Part shown: piece after piece, positions 1,112 through 11,307 of the stretch | Numbering within the stretch: position 1 is the first letter of the stretch | How the letters are laid out: each line of letters begins with the position of its first letter | DNA from: Candidatus Uhrbacteria bacterium RIFOXYB12_FULL_58_10 | GTDB taxonomy: Bacteria > Patescibacteriota > Patescibacteriia > UBA9934 > GWF2-40-263 | Assembly (NCBI GenBank): GCA_943348955.1 | Contig: CALQZE010000002.1 | Location: 1 to 11,307, forward strand | Direction: 5' to 3' | DNA length: 11,307 nt | Notes under the pieces: generated by a model | The model's input: the letters and a program-made list of their open reading frames with translations, nothing else | Databases searched by the model: none | What the model was told of the DNA's origin: nothing | Position numbers and translations under genes: made by a program

Positions 1112-1369
1112 TTATTTCAAACTTTCCTTTATTCTTCGTAGCAACGGAATAGAAATTGATCCACTTCGTTTCACATGAGATTCACGATCGCGAGCTGTCT
1201 TCTCCGTAATATACGCTTCATAATAAACTAACTTCCAAGGCCGTCGAGGTCTGGTCGAATCAACTTCTCCATTATTGTGTTGTGCAAAACGTTTTCGCAG
1301 ATCGCCAGTTGAACCTTTGTAGAAATAATTGATATCAACCTGACTTTGAAGAACATAGAAGTACCACAT
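1112..1369 (-). CDS. Small GIY-YIG nuclease domain protein
   Basis: This 85-residue protein begins MWYFYVLQ, which matches the first strand of stand-alone GIY-YIG proteins (UPF0213/YhbQ-like). The GIY tyrosine is Tyr5 and the YIG equivalent is FYKGS (Tyr17, Gly19). RKRFAQHNNG carries Arg27 and His31, and the likely metal-binding Glu63 is in ARDRESHVKR. The start at 1369 was chosen over upstream in-frame codons because the domain begins there and a -10-like TATACT lies 9 bases before it; the upstream frame crosses a terminator hairpin. Members of this family are structure-like nucleases or of unknown role, and no specific DNA target can be inferred. It is followed 11 bases later by the SGNH hydrolase gene. 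The GIY-YIG call is firm, the biological role unknown. Confidence 0.88.
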   Translation of the reverse strand: MWYFYVLQSQVDINYFYKGSTGDLRKRFAQHNNGEVDSTRPRRPWKLVYYEAYITEKTARDRESHVKRSGSISIPLLRRIKESLK

Positions 1370-1378
1370 AACAAATTT

Positions 1379-1384
1379 AGTATA
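1379..1384 (-). promoter_or_regulatory. -10 box candidate for the GIY-YIG/SGNH unit
   Basis: Read on the minus strand this is TATACT (5 of 6 to TATAAT). It is only 9 bases from the ATG at 1369, so initiation about 7 bases downstream would give an almost leaderless mRNA. No good -35 is visible: the best is TTGTTT at 1405-1400 with a 15-base spacer, overlapping the preceding terminator. Confidence 0.4.
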
Positions 1385-1403
1385 AAGAAAAGCTTGGTAA
1401 AAC

Positions 1404-1429
1404 AAAAGAACACCTCTCGGTGTTCTTTT
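1404..1429 (-). terminator. Intrinsic terminator of the tRNA-Trp transcript
   Basis: An 11-bp perfect stem (AAAAGAACACC / GGTGTTCTTTT) closes a 4-base loop. On the minus strand it is followed by TTTTGTTTT, so it best terminates the tRNA-Trp transcript about 75 to 100 bases beyond the mature 3' end. It sits just upstream of the GIY-YIG -10 box and insulates that unit. Confidence 0.75.
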
Positions 1430-1479
1430 ACTAACATGTTGGCACGAAACGTGACCTGACACACTACAGCTGAGTGGCA

Positions 1480-1507
1480 GGCCACGTCGGGCGCGACCGA
1501 CGTGGCC
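1480..1507 (-). other. Perfect 11-bp GC-rich hairpin overlapping the tRNA-Trp 3' end
   Basis: GGCCACGTCGG and CCGACGTGGCC flank a 6-base GC-rich loop. Read on the minus strand, the first five bases of the left arm are G72, G73 and the CCA end of the tRNA. It has no U-tract, so it is not a normal terminator. It may fold the trailer and mask the tRNA 3' end until processing. Confidence 0.7.
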
Positions 1508-1576
1508 GGGGCGGTGGGAATCGGACCCACGTCAGAGGTTTTGGAGACCTCCGTCCTACCATTGAACGACGCCCCT
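1503..1576 (-). tRNA. tRNA-Trp(CCA) with encoded CCA
   Basis: The minus strand folds as a complete cloverleaf of 74 bases. The acceptor strands GGGGCG/CGCCCC pair at positions 2-7 with 66-71. The D stem is GTTC/GGAC with GG in the loop. The anticodon stem GAGGT/ACCTC encloses loop CTCCAAA, giving anticodon CCA. The variable loop has 4 bases, and the T stem is GTGGG/CCCAC. The discriminator is G73, as in bacterial tRNA-Trp, and CCA is encoded at 1505-1503. Two oddities are visible: position 1 is A opposite G72 (E. coli has A1-U72), and the T loop reads TCCGATT, with C in place of the near-universal T55. The match to the E. coli tRNA-Trp body (GGGGCGT, CTCCAAAAC, CGCCCC) supports identity. Confidence 0.93.
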
Positions 1577-2117: not shown

Positions 2118-4835
2118 ATGACGCATGTTCATTTCCGTTTAAAAAATGTCTGTACCGTTCTGCTTTTGTCTATAATGACAATAATGGGATTGTTTATTTC
2201 CCTGCAAAATGTAAGAGCGCTTGTCTTTTTTTTTCCACTGAGCATCACGACTCCGTATACGTCCTCATTAAATAATGGAAGTTCTGTTATTTCGTTTACA
2301 AGCGGGAGCGATGCAACTCCACTCGTTGGTGTGTGTTCTATTGATAATTTTGTAACGTATGCAGAATGTATAACGGGCGTTACGACACTTGCGAACATTC
2401 CGGGTTTCGGAGCTCTTCCAGATGGAGTCTTCACCCTCTATCTTCAAGATGATGATTCAAGTCGCAATACTCAAATAGAGTTTAGAGAGGGGATCATCAA
2501 AGATACAATTCCTCCCGTCATAACTCCGAGTGCTCCAACTAGCGGTACACATGTAAATTCAACTTTTTCGTTCGTTTATTCATTGAGCGGTAATGCGGAT
2601 TCAGGCACAATCACATTTGCACAGACAGGCGGTTCTCCGGATAGTGCGTCTCATGTATTTGTGATTGCGAGAGACGATGCGGCTAATGGAACGCACACCC
2701 TTTCAAGAACGATGCTTGAGGCGGGCTTTGGAAACTCCTTGGTTGACGGTGCAATTTATTCCATCACATCTGTTGTGACGGACATGGCAGGAAATCAATC
2801 CGCACCTATTACCCATACAGGTATCACTCTCGATTTAACCGCTCCGTCTGCGCCAGCACGCACACATATCACTTCAAGTAACGTGATTTCAAATCTCGCA
2901 AAAATAGGGGATACCGTTACCGTAACGGCACTTGTGGATGCTGGGACAAGAGTGACTGGAACGATTGGTGGAAAAGTGGCGACAAGCTCCTCAGTTAATG
3001 GTTCGGATGCAACGCTTACGCGTCTTTTGGATGGAACAGAAACAGAAGGAGTTGGTCTTGATTTCACCATTGTTTCCACAGATGAGGCAGAAAATTATTC
3101 AGAGACATTAACGAAAACCAGCATCGTTGATGAATCTTCCGTTCAGACAGATTTTACAGCTCCTGTTTTACCGACAGCGAGTCCGATTGCGGGCACATAT
3201 ACAGGTACACAAAGCGTCACGCTTTCTTCTGTGGGGTCTTCGAGTGTTCTTTTCACTGTAGATGGCACAATACCAACGTGTTCTACGGGGATCGCTTATG
3301 CGGGAGCGATTTCTGTTTCTTCATCAACAACGATTAAAGCAAGAGGTTGTGATATCACAGGAAATGCGTCTGCACTCGCCACCTTCAGTTACACAATAAA
3401 CATTTCAGGCGGTGGTAGCGGTGGAAATGTTTATACTCCACCTCCATCTTCACCCACAGCAAGTCCAATTGCCGGCACATACACAGGCGTGCAAAACGTG
3501 ACTCTTTCTTCTGCGGGAGCGACAAGTATTCGCTTCACAACAGACGGAACAACTCCAACGTGTTCTGTTGGAACGGTTTACGTCGGAGCGATCCCTGTGT
3601 TTTCAACAAAAACAATCAGGGCAAGAGGTTGTAATGTATCCGGAGTTGCTTCTACACTTGCCACATTTAGTTACACCATAAACAGTTCAAGTGGTGGTAG
3701 TGGCAGTTCCGTTTCGACTCCCTCATTGCCGACAGCAAATCCTGTTGCTGGCACGTTTGCAAGTACACAAAATGTCACTTTGTCTTCAACAAACGCGACA
3801 AGTATTCGCTTCACAACAGACGGAACAACTCCGACGTGTTCTGTTGGAACGGTCTATACGGGAGCTATTGTCGTTTCTTCAACAAAAACAATTAAAGCAA
3901 AAGGTTGTAATGTGTCCGGAGTCGCTTCCTCGCTCGCAACGTTTGTTTATACAATCAATGCTTCAAGCAGTAATAGTTCCATTTCGCCTCCATCCTTGCC
4001 AATAGCAAGTCCCGTTTCCGGTGTGTATTCAAGTATACAAACCGTCACGTTATCCTCATCGGGAGCGACAAGTATCCGTTATACAATGGATGGAACAACT
4101 CCAACATGTACCATTGGATCGATCTATTCGGGGGCGATATCCGTTTCCTCCACAAAAACAATCAGAGCAAGAGGTTGTAATGCTTCTGGAGTCATGTCTC
4201 CACTCGCCATCTATGTGTATACGATAAACAGTTCGGGTGGCAGTAGTATTTACGTCGCACCTATTGCTGTGATCATTCATGACCCTTCTCAATATCTGAA
4301 ATTGTTGTCGGATTTTGGATTAATCAGTGATCCGGTGAATTTTGAAATGTATAAGTCATCGGTTCAATCCGATGCAAGTACTTATGGTGTTGCGATTACT
4401 GCAGAACAGGTGAGGGTTATTTCAAATTTTATTACGTACGGTGCATCAACAGAAACCATCAAACTTGGTTCAGGTGAACGACGTGCGGTTATTCGAGATT
4501 ATTTTGAAACCGTCGGTCGTGGAGATGTTGTTTGGGATGATATTCAGCGTCTTACGATCGGACAAAAACCCGTCAAACGTAATTTGGCAAAAGAACAAGC
4601 ACAGGTAGCGGTTGCTCTTGCACATTTTACACAAATGGTTGGTCATCCACCGAACTTTAAAGACACGTCAGAGGATTTGGCTTGGAATACGTTAATGTAT
4701 CGCATTCGTTTCCCACGTGATCTTGTAAAGGAACAGCAAGGAATTCATAAATTTGAAAGCATTTTCAAGCGTATACCGTTGACTCCTTTTGAATGGGCGA
4801 TCGTGAGAGCTCTTGGGTATGTATTGAAGAATTGA
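2118..4835 (+). CDS. Exported multi-domain surface protein with four chitobiase-C-terminal-like repeats
   Basis: This is a 905-residue protein. Residues 1-34 form a signal peptide: basic HFRLK, a hydrophobic core to about residue 29, then VRA as a plausible cleavage site after Ala34. No lipobox is seen. Residues about 35-350 are beta-rich Ig-like modules punctuated by D-x-T/I-(A/P)-P junctions (KDTIPPV, LDLTAPS, TDFTAPV). Residues 352-428, 446-522, 538-614 and 628-704 are four repeats of exactly 77 residues with the core TDGTTPTC ... TIRARGC, resembling the chitobiase/beta-hexosaminidase C-terminal domain (CHB_HEX_C_1). Each repeat has two Cys 23 residues apart, consistent with one disulfide outside the cell. 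Gly/Ser/Pro linkers join them. Residues about 720-905 are a mixed helical domain with LGSGER (783-788) and three weakly similar units ending FEWAIVRALGY. No catalytic motif is seen; binding to carbohydrate, envelope or another cell is inference. A terminator follows at 4847-4880. Confidence 0.85.
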   Translation: MTHVHFRLKNVCTVLLLSIMTIMGLFISLQNVRALVFFFPLSITTPYTSSLNNGSSVISFTSGSDATPLVGVCSIDNFVTYAECITGVTTLANIPGFGALPDGVFTLYLQDDDSSRNTQIEFREGIIKDTIPPVITPSAPTSGTHVNSTFSFVYSLSGNADSGTITFAQTGGSPDSASHVFVIARDDAANGTHTLSRTMLEAGFGNSLVDGAIYSITSVVTDMAGNQSAPITHTGITLDLTAPSAPARTHITSSNVISNLAKIGDTVTVTALVDAGTRVTGTIGGKVATSSSVNGSDATLTRLLDGTETEGVGLDFTIVSTDEAENYSETLTKTSIVDESSVQTDFTAPVLPTASPIAGTYTGTQSVTLSSVGSSSVLFTVDGTIPTCSTGIAYAGAISVSSSTTIKARGCDITGNASALATFSYTINISGGGSGGNVYTPPPSSPTASPIAGTYTGVQNVTLSSAGATSIRFTTDGTTPTCSVGTVYVGAIPVFSTKTIRARGCNVSGVASTLATFSYTINSSSGGSGSSVSTPSLPTANPVAGTFASTQNVTLSSTNATSIRFTTDGTTPTCSVGTVYTGAIVVSSTKTIKAKGCNVSGVASSLATFVYTINASSSNSSISPPSLPIASPVSGVYSSIQTVTLSSSGATSIRYTMDGTTPTCTIGSIYSGAISVSSTKTIRARGCNASGVMSPLAIYVYTINSSGGSSIYVAPIAVIIHDPSQYLKLLSDFGLISDPVNFEMYKSSVQSDASTYGVAITAEQVRVISNFITYGASTETIKLGSGERRAVIRDYFETVGRGDVVWDDIQRLTIGQKPVKRNLAKEQAQVAVALAHFTQMVGHPPNFKDTSEDLAWNTLMYRIRFPRDLVKEQQGIHKFESIFKRIPLTPFEWAIVRALGYVLKN
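3171..3401 (+). repeat. Chitobiase-C-terminal-like repeat 1 (77 codons)
   Basis: Runs from PTASPIAGTYTG to FSYTIN. It is the most divergent copy, with DGTIPTC and ARGCDITG in place of DGTTPTC and ARGCNVSG. Confidence 0.8.
3453..3683 (+). repeat. Chitobiase-C-terminal-like repeat 2 (77 codons)
   Basis: Same length and boundaries as the other copies. It shares a nearly identical DNA block (3519-3580) with repeat 3. Linker of 17 codons from repeat 1. Confidence 0.85.
3729..3959 (+). repeat. Chitobiase-C-terminal-like repeat 3 (77 codons)
   Basis: Runs from PTANPVAGTF to FVYTIN. Its block 3795-3856 matches repeat 2 at the DNA level. Linker of 15 codons from repeat 2. Confidence 0.85.
3999..4229 (+). 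repeat. Chitobiase-C-terminal-like repeat 4 (77 codons)
   Basis: Runs from PIASPVSGVYSS to YVYTIN. The Cys pair is kept (TPTCT, ARGCN). Linker of 13 codons from repeat 3. Confidence 0.82.
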
Positions 4836-5500: not shown

Positions 5501-5529
5501 TTGTATAAAAAAACGGATAAGGATATAAT
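5501..5529 (+). promoter_or_regulatory. Promoter of the receiver/surface-protein operon
   Basis: TTGTAT (5501-5506, TTG core) and TATAAT (5524-5529, 6 of 6) are separated by exactly 17 bases. The expected start near 5536 gives a leader of about 20 bases before the ATG at 5556, with a pyrimidine-rich TTCTTTCTATTTCTT and no Shine-Dalgarno. Confidence 0.68.
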
Positions 5530-5555
5530 AAACGTATTGATTCTTTCTATTTCTT

Positions 5556-5951
5556 ATGTTCGGAAAAAAAACACCTCAAAAAAATAAGCGAAAGATTATG
5601 CTGATCGTTGAAGATGATGCTTTGTTGTGCCGTGCATTATCAGAAGCATTTTCACATGAACTTTACGATACGTCATGTGTTGGAAATGGACTTGATGTTC
5701 AGTCCGCTGTAGAAAAAAACATGCCCGATGTTGTTTTATTAGATCTCATCTTGCCGGGTTTAGATGGATTCGCTGTTTTGAAACAATTGAAATCGGAAAT
5801 TAAAACAGCTTCCATTCCTGTTGTCGTTATTTCAAATTTAGGTTCTGCGGCAGATGTGAAGTCTGCTAAATCACTTGGAGCGGAAGCTTATTTTATTAAG
5901 GCGAACTCAGAAATAAAACAGATCATCGATTACGTAAATGGGTTGGTTTAA
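5556..5951 (+). CDS. Stand-alone CheY-like response regulator receiver 1
   Basis: This 131-residue protein is a receiver domain only, after a short basic tail (GKKTPQKNKRK). Acidic pocket residues are Glu19-Asp20-Asp21 in LIVEDD. The phospho-acceptor is Asp63 in VVLLDLILP, the switch Ser is Ser93 in VVVISN, and the invariant Lys is Lys115 in YFIKA. All residues required for phosphorylation are present. There is no DNA-binding or enzymatic output domain, so it should act by protein contact, as CheY, PilG or PilH do, or as a phosphate relay. It is the first gene after the 5501-5529 promoter, and the second receiver follows after 6 bases. No histidine kinase is in the window. The two receivers are clear paralogues (both PD(V/L)VLLDL and SNLG). 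Confidence 0.95.
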   Translation: MFGKKTPQKNKRKIMLIVEDDALLCRALSEAFSHELYDTSCVGNGLDVQSAVEKNMPDVVLLDLILPGLDGFAVLKQLKSEIKTASIPVVVISNLGSAADVKSAKSLGAEAYFIKANSEIKQIIDYVNGLV

Positions 5952-5957
5952 GATGCT

Positions 5958-6347
5958 ATGGCAAAGAGTAAAAGCAAAGTTATTTTAATTGTTGAAGACG
6001 ATGAAGTTATTTTACGAGCTTTATATTTAAGTTTTCATGAAGGAGAATTTACAATTGCAACAGCAACAGACGGAGAAACAGCTTTGAGCATGACACAACG
6101 TTTAAAACCCGATTTGGTTTTGTTGGATCTTGTGTTGCCAAAAAAAAGCGGATTCGATTATTTGAAAGACATGAAAGCGGATCCTGTTTTAAAATCGATC
6201 CCCGTGATCGTTCTTTCAAATCTCGGAACGGAAGATAATAAAGAAAAAGCAAAGGATCTTGGGGCATTGGATTATTTTGTGAAAGCGGATACGGATCTGT
6301 CTGTCCTTGTACAAAAAGCAAAAAAGGTTTTAGAAAAAAATTCTTAA
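5958..6347 (+). CDS. Stand-alone CheY-like response regulator receiver 2
   Basis: This 129-residue protein is again only a receiver domain. Glu13-Asp14-Asp15 lie in LIVEDDE, phospho-acceptor Asp57 in LVLLDLVLP, Ser87 in VIVLSN, and Lys109 in YFVKA. It aligns end to end with receiver 1 and the catalytic set is intact. The paralogues differ most in the loop after the phospho-Asp (PGLDGF against PKKSGF) and in the alpha-4 region, which commonly decides partner choice; a division of labour such as PilG/PilH is therefore possible but inferred. It is 6 bases from receiver 1 and 9 bases from the following membrane-protein gene, with no Shine-Dalgarno, so the operon structure is strong. Confidence 0.95.
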   Translation: MAKSKSKVILIVEDDEVILRALYLSFHEGEFTIATATDGETALSMTQRLKPDLVLLDLVLPKKSGFDYLKDMKADPVLKSIPVIVLSNLGTEDNKEKAKDLGALDYFVKADTDLSVLVQKAKKVLEKNS

Positions 6348-6356
6348 ACACATTTT

Positions 6357-7184
6357 GTGAAAACAGCTTGGCTCAATTTGATTCTTCGATTGTCGAACCA
6401 GATTTATCAACGAAAACAGTTGTTGGTTGGACAGGAGGGGGTGCAAATCATTTGGAACATTGTTTCGATTGTTTTGATTGAGATATTGCTGGCTATTGTT
6501 TCTCTGCCGCTTTATATCAGTGTTGGTTCTCAGAAAGTGACAGCTTTTTTGGAAGAGCGTGGAGGATATGCAAAAGTAGCGTTTGATTATAAATTGCGTC
6601 GGATTTTAACATTGTCGGGTACGGTCGTCATTGCTGTTGTCTGGGGATTGAAACTGTTGTTGATTTTATTGGTTCCAACTGTTTTTGGTCCGTTGCCACT
6701 TTATTATGTGAGTGATCTTCGACCGCCAGAATTGTCTTCACAAGAGCAGGCGGCAATTTTAGAAGAAGCTGGTATTCAAAATGCACGCGCTGTTCAAAGT
6801 TTGCAGAGACCGGAATTTACAGGAGTGAACAAAACATCCGGCAAGAATTTTGTTTTTTACGGAACGGGTGAACCGAACACCATGGTTGTTTTGTTTTTAA
6901 CGGATCAACAAACGGCTGTGTATACGGGAACGGTTGATAAGAATGGAGCATGGAGTATTGAGCATGGACAAAAAGAGTTTTTGTTAAGTGAAGGGAATCA
7001 TTCTTTGTCCGCGTTTACTTATAACAAGCAATCAGGTGTGCGCAGTGATTTCTCCAACACACAATACTTTAAAGTCAAAACAACTTGGTTGGACCTTGTA
7101 GTGAGAAATGTAGATGTTCTCGCAAACTTGTCCGTTGTCACGATTATTCTGCTCGGTGCCTTTTTGGTCATTTTAACCATCTGA
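6357..7184 (+). CDS. Three-helix membrane protein with external Ig-like domain
   Basis: This 275-residue protein starts at GTG 6357, 9 bases after receiver 2; no ATG fits the conserved N-terminus. Hydrophobic segments are at about residues 30-56, 83-110 and 257-275, the last ending the protein as a C-terminal anchor. The loop at 58-82 is basic (cytoplasmic by the positive-inside rule), which places residues 111-256 outside. Residues 152-240 read like a bacterial Ig-like (Big) domain: FYGTGEPNTMVVLFL, then GTVDKNGAWSIE, then LLSEGNHSLSAFTYNKQSG. The first 110 residues are homologous to the N-terminus of the next gene product (LLAIVSLPLY-x-x-x-x-SQKV against LLAVISLPLF-x-x-x-x-PQKV). No enzymatic motif is visible. 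It probably partners the giant surface protein in the envelope (inference). The gene ends at TGA, 21 bases before the next start. Confidence 0.82.
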   Translation: MKTAWLNLILRLSNQIYQRKQLLVGQEGVQIIWNIVSIVLIEILLAIVSLPLYISVGSQKVTAFLEERGGYAKVAFDYKLRRILTLSGTVVIAVVWGLKLLLILLVPTVFGPLPLYYVSDLRPPELSSQEQAAILEEAGIQNARAVQSLQRPEFTGVNKTSGKNFVFYGTGEPNTMVVLFLTDQQTAVYTGTVDKNGAWSIEHGQKEFLLSEGNHSLSAFTYNKQSGVRSDFSNTQYFKVKTTWLDLVVRNVDVLANLSVVTIILLGAFLVILTI

Positions 7185-7205
7185 GTTCTCTCACAACTTT
7201 TTTCT

Positions 7206-10200
7206 ATGGAAACCCGTTTGCTTAACTTTTTTCTGCGGTTCTCCGGATTTGTTTTTAATCTCAAGCAAAAAGTTGTTGAAAAAGAAGGTTGGACGGCAGT
7301 TTTGCCGACAGCTATTTTATTGATCGGTTCAGAATGCCTTTTGGCGGTTATTTCCTTACCGCTGTTTATTTTTGTTTCACCCCAAAAAGTTCAGGAAACC
7401 GGTTTTGTGTTTCCGACAAAGCAAAAAGAGACACGATCTTATCAGTCTTTTATAGTCAGAAGAAAAATCAGTATTTTCACGATCGGTGGCGCGGGTGGAA
7501 TTTATGCGATGAAAGTCTTGATTGTTGGAATCGTCTCTTTTTATTTGCTCGGAGCAACTCCGTTGCTTGCCGCCATACAGAACTGGGATTTCAGTGTTGC
7601 AGGAGATTACACATACGACTCTGCAAAGATTGAAGTGACAGGTGGAGTGGGGCAATTAAAAAATTTGGGAGGTGTTACAAACGGCGCGACAACTAATCCA
7701 AATTTTTCGACAGACACAACAGGGTGGACGTATGCAGACTGGGATCAAACGGGTGGAGAATCAAACGTTGTCGGTGCTCGTGTTACTTCTGGTGGAAATC
7801 CTGGCGGATATGTCAATGTTAGTTTTCCAGCAGGAGCAAATGATGAATTTGGAGGATATTGGCGACAGTCTTTCGTGACGACAGTTGCCGACCCAACAGT
7901 GACAGTTGGGTTTGATTGGCAGATAACAGCTTTTGATACAACTCCTGTTCCAAACACATTTAAACTGTATGCGTTCGTGGATACAGGTTCGGGCGTGCCG
8001 GTTATCGGGCAAGAGGTTTGGTCATCCGGTGAGATCTCCGGAACGAGCGGATGGGCTTCCGTGAGCAGTTTTGATGTTTCTTCAAAAGTAACAGCTGCAG
8101 GAACCTACTATTTGAAAATCGCCGCGTGGTTGGAGACTCCCGGAAGTTCAAGTGGGCCATTCACGCTCGGATACGACAACGTTCAATTAAACTGGACAAA
8201 AACAACGGTTAGTTATGACACAACGAGTCCAACCATCAATCCAACGACATCGCTTACCATGTCTAAAACGGTTAGCTGGAATGCGTTTACAGAAACCGCG
8301 ACAAAAAACGGCGGAGAAATTTCTTATCAACTTTCTGACGATGATGGAGCAACGTGGAAATATTGGACGGGTTCCGCCTGGGGAACTGCCGGAGCGACAA
8401 ATTACAATGTTGCAAGCGTTGTAAATACAAACATCGGCACATTTCCAAAAACGAATAATAAAATTCGATGGAAAGCGTTTCTGACAAGTAACGGATCTCA
8501 ACAGGTTATTTTAGATAACGTCGCGATTGATTACACCGAAAACAGTTTACCGGTTATCTCAAGCGTCACTCCAAGTCAGGGAACAAGTACGGGACGTGTT
8601 TATATTCCTTATACGTTGGCGGATGCAGATAGTGATCCAGAAAGTTTGACGACGTATGAATATTCTTTGACGGGTTCATTTACGGGAGAGCAAGTGACCA
8701 TGACGGCAGCGACAGGAGATCCTTCGCACAGCGGTGTTTCGAGTTTGACGTCATCGCCAGCAGGTGTTTCTCATACGTTTGTTTGGGACGCATTCTCGCA
8801 ACTTGGTGCGGTGTACAACACAACCGTTTATGTTCGACTTCGTGCGAATGACGGTGTTGGAAATGGTGTGTATGAAGCATCAACCGCATTCACGGTCGAT
8901 TATGTGAATCCGGTTGTGTCGAATGTGGTTGCTGTACAAACTGCAGGATCGACAAACGTTTCTGTTACGTATGATGTTGCAGATAATACCTCGACAGATT
9001 TGTTGATCGAAGTTGATGTTTCAGAAGATGGAGGATCAACATGGACGGTTCCAGACACGTCTGTTTCCGGAAATGTAGGAAGCGGACAATCAACGGGTGC
9101 GGGGAAGACAATCACCTGGAGTGCGGGAACAGATTTTGACGAACAACAACAATCGGATATTCAGGTGCGTGTAAGAGCAAAAGATAAATGGCAAAATCAA
9201 GGCGCAAATCTTGCGTCTGCAAACGTTGCGCTTGATACTCTGAATGCGGCTGTATTAACAACAGCTAATCTTCAAGCACAGCCAAACGCTGGAGATACAA
9301 CAGCATTGATCGGCGGATCGTTTACGGAGGTCAATCCAAATACAAATGAATTCTACGTTGCTATTGATGGCGGAGCCTATGGATCCGCAACGGTCGGAAC
9401 GACGAATACAGCATCGCCTTCAAACCAAGCGACAGCCGTTGGTGCGACGCTTGATGGAAATGATTACATCTCAAACGTAAAACTCGTTCATACGGATGAT
9501 TTTGGCCAGGTGACTTCAAATGAGAATACTTCACCTTCCACATCGTTTAAATACGTGAAGCCGTATACGCCGGCGACACCAACTCTTTCAAATCCAATTA
9601 CAACCACACTTGATCTCACAATCAATCCAAATGTAAGTGAAACAAGCGGACTCGAATATGCGATTTTTGAAACGTCGCAATCAAAATGGGTGCAAAGTAA
9701 CGGAACACTCGGAGCAAGTGCTGTTTGGGAAGTTTTGGGAACGGCAAGCGGACAATGGGGAAACAATACAGGTGTTTCCGCAAAGGTAAACGTGAATGGA
9801 TTAGTATCTCCGGTTGCGAATTATATTTTTGAAGTCAAATCACGCAATACATCTGATGGTGCAAATGCCGCATCCTCAGAATCCGCTTTTTCCGCAACAG
9901 CCCAAATCACAAACACAGCTCCTTCGATCTCACTTGGTTCGATTGCTCAGACAACGGATGGAACAAAGTACATCACGATTAATTACACAGGAACGGATGG
10001 ACAAGGTGATATCAACAGTTTGACGGTGTTTGAATACGCCCGTGACAATTCCGCATGGAGCACCATGACGGAAAAATCAGGAGTGAGCTCTGACGGAACA
10101 TCGAATTTGATATTCTTGCCGGGAGGAAGTGCACATGACTTCATGTGGGATGTTGGAACGGATCTTGTAAGCGTAGAAGATTCCACTGTTTACATTCGAT

Positions 10201-11307
10201 TACGATCATCTGATACCTTAACAACAAGCACACTCGCGACTTCATCAGCTTTCGAAATTGATACGATTACACCGGTTGTGTCGAGTGTTTCCGCTGTTCA
10301 AAATGCAGGCGTACGAACCGTGGCTTTTACGTATACATTGACCGATGCGAATAATTCTTTGGTCGAATTGGATATTTCAGAAGATGGAGGGTCTACATGG
10401 GCGGTGACAGACACATCGGTGACGGGTCATGTTGGAACAGGAGTAACTCCAGGAAGCAAAACAATCACATGGAATGCGGGAGTGGATTTTGATAATCAAT
10501 ATCAGACAGATCTTCAAGTTCGCATTCGGGCAAATGATACGTTTGGAAATCAAGGAGCAAATACTTCCTCGAGTAATTTTACGGTTGATACAAAAGATCC
10601 TGTTGTCGCAAATGTCACAGCTGTTCAAGATTCGGCTGCGGACACATTCACGTTTCATTATGATGTCAGTGAAGATTCTGGAAATGTCACGGTTGGACTT
10701 GAAGTTTCAAGCAATGGTGGATCAACATGGGTTGTTCCAATCACAACAGCCACCGGAGATGTTGGAACCGTTGTTCCGGGAACAAACAAAACGATTACAT
10801 GGAATGCAGCGACGGATTACAATGGTTTTGAAAAAACAAACATGATGATCCGTGTGACAGCAACGGATACGTTTTCAAACACATCGAACGCAAGTTCCTC
10901 AACATTCACACTTGATTCGCTTGCGCCTCGTGTGACAGGTGTGAGTGCATCACAAACATCTGGTTCAACAAATGTTTCGATTACGTATACACTTGCAGAT
11001 CAAAATAATTCACTTGTGGAAATAGATGTTTCCGATGATGGAGGATTCACGTGGGCGGTACCAGACACAAACGTTTCAGGAGATGTTGGAGCAGGAATCG
11101 CTGCGGGAAGTAAAACAATCACCTGGAACGCAGGTGCAGATTTTGATGAACAAGCACAATCGGATATACAAGTTCGTGTTCGTGCAAAAGATGTTTACGA
11201 ACATCAAAGTGCAAATACAGAATCGGCAAATTTCGCGCTTGATACGTTGAATCCGGCAACGAATGTTACTGCCGATTTGCAATCGCAGCCGAATGCGGGG
11301 GATACGA
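7206..11307 (+). CDS. Giant repeat-built surface protein, 3' truncated by window edge
   Basis: The frame opens at ATG 7206 and has no stop through the end of the window, giving at least 1367 codons. Residues 31-57 and about 91-123 are membrane segments around a basic loop, homologous to the preceding protein. After the second helix comes QNWDFSVAGDYTYDSAKIEV. Residues about 160-330 look like a jelly-roll carbohydrate-binding or galactose-binding-like domain (NPNFSTDTTGW ... GYDNVQLNW). Residues 336-446 form a further beta module with SDDDGATWKYW. From 449 on, the protein is a hierarchy of Ig/Fn3-like modules: type 2 (449-568 and 906-1022), type 1 (569-680, 1023-1131, 1132-1240, 1241-1349), and a long block (681-905) that restarts at 1350. 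Type 1 modules hold S-x-D-x-G-x-T-W motifs. No catalytic site is recognised; adhesion or envelope architecture is the likely role. It is the last visible gene of the receiver operon, 21 bases after the membrane-protein stop. Confidence 0.9.
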   Translation, partial: METRLLNFFLRFSGFVFNLKQKVVEKEGWTAVLPTAILLIGSECLLAVISLPLFIFVSPQKVQETGFVFPTKQKETRSYQSFIVRRKISIFTIGGAGGIYAMKVLIVGIVSFYLLGATPLLAAIQNWDFSVAGDYTYDSAKIEVTGGVGQLKNLGGVTNGATTNPNFSTDTTGWTYADWDQTGGESNVVGARVTSGGNPGGYVNVSFPAGANDEFGGYWRQSFVTTVADPTVTVGFDWQITAFDTTPVPNTFKLYAFVDTGSGVPVIGQEVWSSGEISGTSGWASVSSFDVSSKVTAAGTYYLKIAAWLETPGSSSGPFTLGYDNVQLNWTKTTVSYDTTSPTINPTTSLTMSKTVSWNAFTETATKNGGEISYQLSDDDGATWKYWTGSAWGTAGATNYNVASVVNTNIGTFPKTNNKIRWKAFLTSNGSQQVILDNVAIDYTENSLPVISSVTPSQGTSTGRVYIPYTLADADSDPESLTTYEYSLTGSFTGEQVTMTAATGDPSHSGVSSLTSSPAGVSHTFVWDAFSQLGAVYNTTVYVRLRANDGVGNGVYEASTAFTVDYVNPVVSNVVAVQTAGSTNVSVTYDVADNTSTDLLIEVDVSEDGGSTWTVPDTSVSGNVGSGQSTGAGKTITWSAGTDFDEQQQSDIQVRVRAKDKWQNQGANLASANVALDTLNAAVLTTANLQAQPNAGDTTALIGGSFTEVNPNTNEFYVAIDGGAYGSATVGTTNTASPSNQATAVGATLDGNDYISNVKLVHTDDFGQVTSNENTSPSTSFKYVKPYTPATPTLSNPITTTLDLTINPNVSETSGLEYAIFETSQSKWVQSNGTLGASAVWEVLGTASGQWGNNTGVSAKVNVNGLVSPVANYIFEVKSRNTSDGANAASSESAFSATAQITNTAPSISLGSIAQTTDGTKYITINYTGTDGQGDINSLTVFEYARDNSAWSTMTEKSGVSSDGTSNLIFLPGGSAHDFMWDVGTDLVSVEDSTVYIRLRSSDTLTTSTLATSSAFEIDTITPVVSSVSAVQNAGVRTVAFTYTLTDANNSLVELDISEDGGSTWAVTDTSVTGHVGTGVTPGSKTITWNAGVDFDNQYQTDLQVRIRANDTFGNQGANTSSSNFTVDTKDPVVANVTAVQDSAADTFTFHYDVSEDSGNVTVGLEVSSNGGSTWVVPITTATGDVGTVVPGTNKTITWNAATDYNGFEKTNMMIRVTATDTFSNTSNASSSTFTLDSLAPRVTGVSASQTSGSTNVSITYTLADQNNSLVEIDVSDDGGFTWAVPDTNVSGDVGAGIAAGSKTITWNAGADFDEQAQSDIQVRVRAKDVYEHQSANTESANFALDTLNPATNVTADLQSQPNAGDT
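7683..8195 (+). other. Jelly-roll (CBM/galactose-binding-like) domain within the giant surface protein
   Basis: Residues about 160-330. NPNFSTDTTGWTYADW at the start, YVNVSFPAG and AGTYYLKIAAWLE inside, and the closing GYDNVQLNW fit the layout of carbohydrate-binding jelly rolls (CBM4/9 style). The family assignment is by pattern only. Confidence 0.5.
8550..8909 (+). repeat. Type 2 module, copy 1 (120 residues)
   Basis: Residues 449-568. It shares with copy 2 an IPYTLADAD-like strand, a HTFVWDAFSQL core and the TVYVRLRANDG strand, and ends at the junction AFTVDYVNP. Confidence 0.7.
8910..9245 (+). repeat. Type 1 Ig/Fn3-like module, copy 1 (112 residues)
   Basis: Residues 569-680. It contains SEDGGSTW (606-613), KTITWSAGTDFDEQQQSD and IQVRVRAKD, and ends LDTLN. 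It is three residues longer than the later copies because of small loop insertions. Confidence 0.8.
9246..9920 (+). repeat. Long spacer block of the super-repeat, copy 1 (225 residues)
   Basis: Residues 681-905. It starts AAVLTTANLQAQPNAGDT and contains at least two Ig-like units. The same start recurs at residue 1350 (PATNVTADLQSQPNAGDT). Confidence 0.6.
9921..10271 (+). repeat. Type 2 module, copy 2 (117 residues)
   Basis: Residues 906-1022. HDFMWDVGTDL, TVYIRLRSSD and AFEIDTITP match copy 1. It again directly precedes a type 1 module. Confidence 0.7.
10272..10598 (+). repeat. Type 1 module, copy 2 (109 residues)
   Basis: Residues 1023-1131. SEDGGSTW (1058-1065), KTITWNAGVDFDNQYQTD and LQVRIRAND, ending VDTKD. 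Confidence 0.85.
10599..10925 (+). repeat. Type 1 module, copy 3 (109 residues)
   Basis: Residues 1132-1240. The Asp-box position has Asn (SSNGGSTW, 1168-1175), followed by KTITWNAATDYNGFEKTN; it is the most divergent of the tandem copies. Confidence 0.82.
10926..11252 (+). repeat. Type 1 module, copy 4 (109 residues)
   Basis: Residues 1241-1349. SDDGGFTW (1276-1283), KTITWNAGADFDEQAQSD and IQVRVRAKD, ending LDTLN. It is closest to copy 1, not to its tandem neighbours. Confidence 0.85.
11253..11307 (+). repeat. Start of the second copy of the long spacer block (truncated by window edge)
   Basis: Residues 1350-1367 match the start of the block at residue 681, sharing QPNAGDT, so the super-repeat begins again at the window edge. 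Confidence 0.6.

Follow-up and report, generated by a model that had tools for sequence, protein, structure and literature searches.

The DNA analysed here (the window) is an 11,307-nucleotide stretch of Candidatus Uhrbacteria bacterium RIFOXYB12_FULL_58_10 and represents an entire contig (G000:C2) of a 504,597-base genome in 93 contigs, with an estimated completeness of 56.7%. As an earlier note on this DNA had described, four open reading frames (ORFs) follow one another on the same strand, separated by 6, 9 and 21 bases. They encode two stand-alone receivers (RR1 and RR2), a membrane protein (M) and a giant surface protein (G), whose features are collected in Table 1, and RR1–RR2–M–G is a conserved module in many Patescibacteria loci.

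Table 1. Features of the four-gene operon, in window positions (TM, transmembrane helix; Ig, immunoglobulin; AF2, AlphaFold2; CBM, carbohydrate-binding module).
Feature	Position	Strand	Basis
Putative operon promoter: -35-like TTGTAT, 17-base spacer, -10 TATAAT	5501-5506, 5524-5529	+	Sequence
RR1, stand-alone receiver, 131 residues	5556..5951	+	PF00072, 66.5 bits, 2.9e-18
RR2, stand-alone receiver, 129 residues	5958..6347	+	PF00072, 78.5 bits, 5.5e-22
M, membrane protein, 275 residues, GTG start	6357..7184	+	Homologues, AF2 model
TM1–TM2 loop of M (residues 56-77), leading into invariant Arg81-Arg82	6522..6587	+	Invariant columns, 85 sequences
Ig-like domain of M (residues 153-240)	6813..7076	+	AF2 strands, Foldseek
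G, giant surface protein, at least 1367 residues, cut by contig end	7206..11307	+	ORF list, relatives
N-terminal membrane module of G (residues 1-120), paralogous to M 2-116	7206..7565	+	hhalign 98.8%, E 1e-16
Jelly-roll domain of G (residues 126-335), CBM-like	7581..8210	+	AF2, Foldseek

Conservation of this gene order has been followed in several overlapping draws of genomes. A search for M in 95 genomes, the window's own included, gave a match in eight, five of them at full length (G000, which is the window's genome, G003, G004, G007, and G030); class-wide, M was found in 15 of 380 genomes (E <=1e-10), and phylum-wide in 7 of 379 (E <=1e-8). A protein collection holds 211 homologues of M, and those among the 120 matches listed are mostly 272–275 residues long. 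In addition, a contig scan gave nine loci, partly the same as those of the other draws (four from Uhrbacteria, two from Magasanikbacteria, one from Buchananbacteria, one from a "Parcubacteria bacterium", and one from a "Patescibacteria group bacterium"). The loci were scanned with custom profiles for RR1, RR2, M, the N-terminal module of the giant (GN), its C-terminal end (GC), and the kinase core (built from three relatives), and a close relative of M was present in 17 of them (G000, G003, G004, G007, G030, G330, G099, G234, G318, G147, G246, G375, G102, L049, L050, L051, and G290). In all 16 loci with upstream sequence RR1–RR2 stands directly upstream of M on the same strand, and in all 16 with downstream sequence G, recognised by GN, follows M directly, so that the comparison with relatives proposed in the earlier note has come out in favour of a kept order. 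The G290 contig starts inside M, L051 ends inside M, and RR1 of L050 is incomplete; all four genes are visible in 15 loci, window included. The RR1–RR2 gap measures 1–73 bases, the RR2–M gap 2–42, and the M–G gap -4 to 227, some starts being taken from profile edges, and the RR1 genes of G318, L051, and G375, missed by a simple gene caller, were recovered by a six-frame scan. The idea that the four genes are chance neighbours is refuted by this kept order. As for a chance stretch or an assembly artefact in one genome, the window is indeed one contig of an incomplete assembly, but 14 further loci have the same four genes in this order and the homologues of M are counted in hundreds, which leaves this explanation with hardly any probability.

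The outer neighbours of the module differ between lineages, although some closely related and a few more distant loci have them in common: a rhodanese gene in the window, an aminotransferase gene in G003 and G004 (in G004 a rhodanese gene stands behind the aminotransferase gene), and a gene for a trypsin/PDZ protein in G007. Two distant relatives, G673 and G121, depart from the canonical layout. In G673, which belongs to another class (L114), G and a HisKA kinase gene lie on one strand with 21 bases between them, and the opposite strand carries a receiver gene and M. All four components are thus kept together in this distant genome, but rearranged, the kinase being of MASE6-GAF-HisKA architecture and a prepilin-type gene lying next door. 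In G309 a protein with an M-like front and a GC end is found and no separate M.

Both receivers are complete and CheY-like, as had been claimed: they score over the PF00072 cut-off of 30.2 bits and contain the acid pair, the phospho-accepting Asp, the Ser, and the Lys. No other family passes a cut-off in either, and their lengths leave no room for an output domain. The phospho-pocket of RR2 is kept in 16 of 16 rows of the alignment, and RR1 has the phospho-Asp in 15 of 16 and the acid pair in all 15 rows that have residues at those positions. In a tree of 49 receivers, from which the incomplete RR1 of L050 and most of the 83 genome-wide receiver matches were left out, the 15 RR1 sequences form one clade (100/100) and the 16 RR2 sequences another (98/94); the two are sister clades (95/84), outside which fall 18 further receivers from the retrieved sequences, that of G673 included. 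Recruitment of random local receivers is ruled out by these two clean clades. Genome-wide (21 genomes), 79 of the 83 receiver matches over the cut-off lie in frames of at most 180 residues, which leaves little room for an output domain, and in the module itself no DNA-binding output was found, although DNA-binding regulator families were not searched. Judged from these sequences, output via protein contact rather than DNA binding is favoured. Elsewhere in the window's genome, a degenerate receiver-like ORF lies right after a PilM gene (G000:C34; L042:1408-3415), and the ORF that follows it resembles a pseudopilin by eye, no Pfam family being matched.

M is laid out as an N-terminal helix, TM1, a basic loop, TM2, the Ig-like domain, and TM3. 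Its AF2 model (85 sequences, predicted local distance difference test (pLDDT) 74.5) has helices at residues 2–25, 29–55, 78–110, and 252–274, and the Ig-like domain at 153–240; the description of M as a three-helix Ig protein is therefore a fair one, with a fourth, probably surface, helix preceding the three. Residues invariant among the 85 sequences include Glu42, Ser49, Pro51, Leu52, Tyr53, Arg81, Arg82, and Lys99. Pfam gives only weak Ig-like matches on M. With Foldseek, the Ig domain matches SiiE best, Bap appears at rank 5, and many other Ig and fibronectin type III folds follow lower, so this is a likeness of fold and not a proof of an adhesin. Over 15 loci the mean net charge of the N-tail is +4.1 in M and +3.5 in G, and that of the TM1–TM2 loop +1.9 in M (counted through the Arg pair) and +4.1 in G. 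These values fit the basic cytoplasmic loops that had been attributed to both proteins, but they allow more than one topology for the first long helix. The TM1–TM2 loop of M is proposed as a cytoplasmic docking site.

The giant itself gives nothing over a cut-off in Pfam. Its first 380 residues were modelled (16 sequences, pLDDT 70.7) as helices followed by a jelly roll at about 126–335, for which Foldseek proposes CBM11, CBM4, and CBM61; chains of phage tail fibres and tailspikes rank as high. The models of M and G thus have folds that look adhesin-like. Eight complete relatives of G measure 1109–3982 residues, and all are acidic (net charge -63 to -208); cysteines number 0–4 in seven of them and 27 in that of G330. 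A period of 109–112 residues is found in four of the eight (G003, G030, G099, and G246), three of which have also a period of 671–672; the giant of G330 has a period of 178, and those of G147, G375, and G102 lack a clear one. The giant frames used for these period and charge analyses contain no stops. G was well described as a repeat protein, in which a long repeat region follows the membrane module and the jelly roll. That it is "open-ended" is correct in that its frame has no stop, but this partly reflects truncation at the contig end of an incomplete genome. In all eight complete giants the C-terminal end consists of a hydrophobic stretch and a basic tail, and the basic tail would place this end inside and the Ig and repeat parts outside. 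Since M also matches the C-terminal Ig/TM end of the giant, in addition to its N-terminal module, sequence comparison indicates that M is G in miniature, lacking the repeats, and that M and G are a paralogous pair. In some relatives the giant gene is split, into three frames in G007 (L032/L033) and into two in G234 (L082), and in L050 both RR1 and the giant are broken; either assembly error or frame switching may account for these cases.

The absence of a kinase, which the earlier note had pointed out, is true of the window, where it partly reflects truncation at the contig end, and fails for the family. Nine loci of relatives have both flanks visible (G007, G030, G330, G099, G234, G147, G246, G375, and G102), and in seven of them a histidine kinase is found no more than about 1 kb from the module, against 0.105 expected from the HisKA count of each genome (P about 8e-13 for random placement, a rough model that ignores operon structure and relatedness, with the 1-kb limit set after looking). 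As a trait of the system, "no kinase" is therefore rejected. One-sided views add a kinase upstream in L049 and L050, and beside the C-terminal end of the giant in G027 and G052. All ten adjacent kinase frames profiled (that of L050 excluded) have PAS domains and nine have HisKA plus HATPase; the tenth (L048) is cut by the locus end, and its continuation matches the custom kinase profile. HAMP passes the cut-off in three of the ten, together with dCache-like matches (over the cut-off in one). Each of the 18 genomes with M or giant parts has one to four HisKA matches, HisKA being the only kinase family searched, and in G375, G027, and G052 the sole match is the kinase beside the giant. Among 95 relatives, HisKA is present in 7 of 7 genomes bearing M or the giant versus 59 of 88 others (G075, with one weak Ig match, being counted among the latter), which is a weak association.

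In the window's genome, two HisKA matches exist elsewhere, on C28 and C68, both at contig ends. No receiver lies beside either on the visible stretch, and none beside the two of G003. The possibility that the window's kinase stands just past the contig end is unsupported, as none follows the giant in G003 or G004 (1.7 and 1.5 kb seen). Within the same genus, G003 (98% complete) combines M with two HisKA matches and three receivers, and G001 (99%) has neither M nor HisKA nor any receiver over the cut-off. In G000:C28 (L038) a histidine kinase and an NAD-binding oxidoreductase-like domain (below the cut-off) occupy two adjoining frames, and in G004 (L096) both are joined in one protein of 932 residues, with the domain over the cut-off. 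This would possibly be a redox-sensing kinase, which might serve unlinked receivers.

The four proteins have also been compared in their divergence. Across 15 loci, pairwise distances of RR1, RR2, M, and the N-terminal module of G correlate (r 0.51–0.73, with 0 of 5000 permutations as high), a result expected from shared descent alone too. In partial correlations (14 loci, L050 excluded), RR1 follows M (0.54; 1/2000) and not G (0.05; 695/2000), and RR2 follows both M (0.48; 0/2000) and G (0.39; 2/2000). That the distances of RR1 follow M beyond G hints that RR1 may be a partner of M.

Taken with the adjacent kinases, these data leave an even balance of probability for the view that RR1–RR2–M–G would be the core of a two-component system with a surface structure, and not a gene, as its output, the receivers contacting M or G. 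In this scheme, a kinase with PAS inputs, sometimes with HAMP and a dCache-like part, would phosphorylate RR1 and RR2, a task that in the window's genus would fall to an unlinked kinase. RR1 and RR2 would bind cytoplasmic parts, namely the basic TM1–TM2 loop, the N-terminal helix, and the basic C-terminal tail of G, and M, which has both end modules of G, could act as a partner or switch subunit. Phosphorylation would then alter how the giant, with its Ig-like repeats and CBM-like domain, is displayed, clustered, or retained, or change its mechanical state, and in this way affect attachment to a surface or host cell. By analogy with PilG/PilH, RR2 may provide the main output and RR1 may be an accessory or a phosphate sink working on M. 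Control of surface attachment by the receivers had already been suggested in the earlier note, as a possible phosphorylation control of export, assembly, or display; the kept order of receivers, membrane protein, and giant speaks for it, but the lack of a kinase that went with it does not extend to the family. A stricter version, a non-transcriptional phospho-switch dedicated to one TM-anchored giant adhesin, with duplicated receivers acting on the M/G pair and perhaps RR1 on M, is put forward more tentatively and is somewhat improbable.

Direct contact of the receivers with M or G is thus the working hypothesis, at about even odds against two alternatives, a reverse flow of the signal and mere co-expression. 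In the former, M and G would be the sensor: tension or a ligand on the giant would alter M and the kinase, and the receivers would pass the signal on to other targets, such as type IV pili. Genes of type IV pilus type do occur near outliers (a T2SSE ATPase gene near the module parts of G121 and the prepilin-type gene beside those of G673), and M is built like a transducer with modules matched to those of G; however, the kinases have inputs of their own (PAS, HAMP with a dCache-like part that passes the cut-off in one, and GAF with MASE6 in G673), and no pilus gene is seen by eye beside the operon in the main-clade loci, where pilus profiles were not run. Such a reversal is considered unlikely. 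Co-expression or shared descent alone would mean that the receivers have unrelated targets and that the genes have been kept together because they are needed simultaneously. In fact, operons often group linked proteins that make no contact, and some loci have outer neighbours in common as well; yet the association survives across lineages whose outer neighbours differ, kinase, receiver, M, and G stay together in the rearranged G673, and the distances of RR1 track M beyond G, all of which makes this explanation a rather improbable one.

Several observations weigh against control of the giant by direct receiver contact. Two of the nine loci with both flanks visible (G030 and G099) have no adjacent kinase, and members of the window's genus show none beside the operon within the sequence available (upstream only in G000; both sides in G003, with 1.7 kb downstream to the contig end; upstream in G004, plus 1.5 kb past the end of the giant on another contig). 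The same-genus G002 (81% complete) has two receivers over the cut-off and neither M nor HisKA. In G099, RR1 (L081:6034-6417) has Asn in place of the phospho-Asp, next to an intact RR2, so phosphorylation of RR1 is not universal; because it is RR1, and not RR2, that lost this residue, RR2 is suggested as the main output. The partial correlation of RR2 with G fades (191/2000) after dropping G099 and G030, and G030 has one OmpR-type DNA-binding regulator elsewhere, beside another kinase. The N-tail and the TM1–TM2 loop are both basic, so that the first long helix may or may not cross the membrane. Among the distant relatives, the receiver of G673 falls outside the RR1 and RR2 clades, and in the diverged G121 M stands head to head with a GN-like gene, neither has a neighbouring receiver gene, and a kinase–receiver–T2SSE ATPase cluster is located some 5 kb further on, past M. 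The assemblies of G027 (96% complete) and G052 (88%) lack RR1, RR2, and M and contain only the rear part of the giant, at a contig end with the front beyond it; either assembly gaps or loss would explain this. Finally, rhodanese and aminotransferase genes are found repeatedly near the operon among members of the window's genus, in G147 (L085), G375 (L089), and L051 the gene ahead of RR1 encodes a leucyl-tRNA synthetase, and G102 and G246, of one genus, are similar on both flanks by eye. These shared neighbours mean that shared descent accounts for part of both the conserved order and the distance correlation.

Likeness to known systems is partial in every case. PilG and PilH are stand-alone receivers of the Pil-Chp system, a chemotaxis-like system with the CheA-type histidine phosphotransfer (HPt) kinase ChpA, a chemoreceptor, CheW, and type IV pili, and the Lap system includes LapD, with cyclic di-GMP domains, and the protease LapG. 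The module would share with Pil-Chp a pair of regulators of a kinase system acting on a surface structure, and in that system the two response regulators of one kinase system are described as antagonistic on a surface machine (PMC10519157). Pil-Chp differs in that it has ChpA, whereas the receivers of the module have M and G as partner genes and, where a kinase is adjacent, one of HisKA/PAS type. No CheA-like kinase was found in the module, where nine of the ten adjacent frames are HisKA and the tenth is cut (the genomes were not searched for CheA), and no chemoreceptor or CheW gene is seen by eye beside the receivers in the loci read, a methyl-accepting chemotaxis protein or CheW profile not having been run on all genes. 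Another example is SiiE, a giant Ig-repeat adhesin with accessory proteins controlling its surface retention, whose structures rank first in the Foldseek search with the Ig domain of M; it is exported by a type I system, and SiiA/SiiB are proposed to be a proton channel (PMC6272769). G differs from SiiE by the predicted TM module at its N-terminal end and the hydrophobic stretch and basic tail at its C-terminal end, and no adjacent type I secretion genes are seen by eye in the loci read, where no profiles for them were run. In the inside-out control of LapA by LapD, a cytoplasmic signal sets the surface retention of a large adhesin (PMC3032553, PMC6272769), and a similar logic would apply to the module. 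The Lap system relies on cyclic di-GMP, LapD, and proteolysis, whereas the module would use receivers together with a membrane protein paralogous to its adhesin; with regard to Lap features, M shows only weak Ig profiles, and the flanking genes are only partly profiled. The giant surface proteins closest in setting are those of Vampirococcus lugosii, a Candidate Phyla Radiation bacterium, membrane-localised proteins of 1392–4163 residues proposed to act in host recognition and attachment (PMC8080830). They differ in that no two-component link is reported for them in that paper, whose main text contains neither "two-component" nor "histidine kinase" nor "response regulator" (PMC8080830).

No published description of the RR1–RR2–M–G set was recognised in the open-licence literature, the part covered here as opposed to subscription journals. 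How Patescibacteria recognise, attach to, and release their hosts or sediment is largely open, and their genomes are poor in signalling genes. Conserved receivers together with a membrane pair that includes a giant, and frequently a kinase, constitute a defined and testable candidate for regulated attachment; the presence of the module in several lineages suggests a built-in signalling system, which may control touch or holding. Such a module fits a reported 2.1-fold higher abundance of CheY-like genes in sediment-enriched relative to planktonic ultra-small genomes (PMC9938205). If the proposal is correct, a membrane-anchored adhesin would join motors and pili as a target of stand-alone receivers and, with so few HisKA matches per genome (only this family being counted), the module would be a major, and sometimes the main, two-component use in these bacteria.

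The single promoter claimed for the operon at 5501–5529 holds in part: its -10 hexamer is perfect, but the -35 matches in only three of six positions and the site is absent from the scanner list. Across the window, scanner promoter matches are at chance level (20 versus 21.5 expected). A -10 of at least five matches in six, starting 42 to 30 bases before RR1, is found in 9 of 15 loci versus 3.9 expected from mononucleotide shuffles, and the site is probably the operon promoter. The rhodanese gene upstream ends 61 bases from RR1; since the promoter and terminator scan gave no terminator-like site in this gap, read-through from that gene is possible. Further upstream, the contig encodes a secreted-looking protein of 905 residues with four chitobiase C-terminal-like (CHB_HEX_C_1) repeats (2118-4835), downstream of which the operon lies, a tRNA-Trp (1503-1576, minus strand), and a small GIY-YIG protein (1112-1462, minus strand). 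The leucyl-tRNA synthetase that neighbours the module in G147 has 1164 residues, with NUDIX and HAD-like matches in the middle of the protein.

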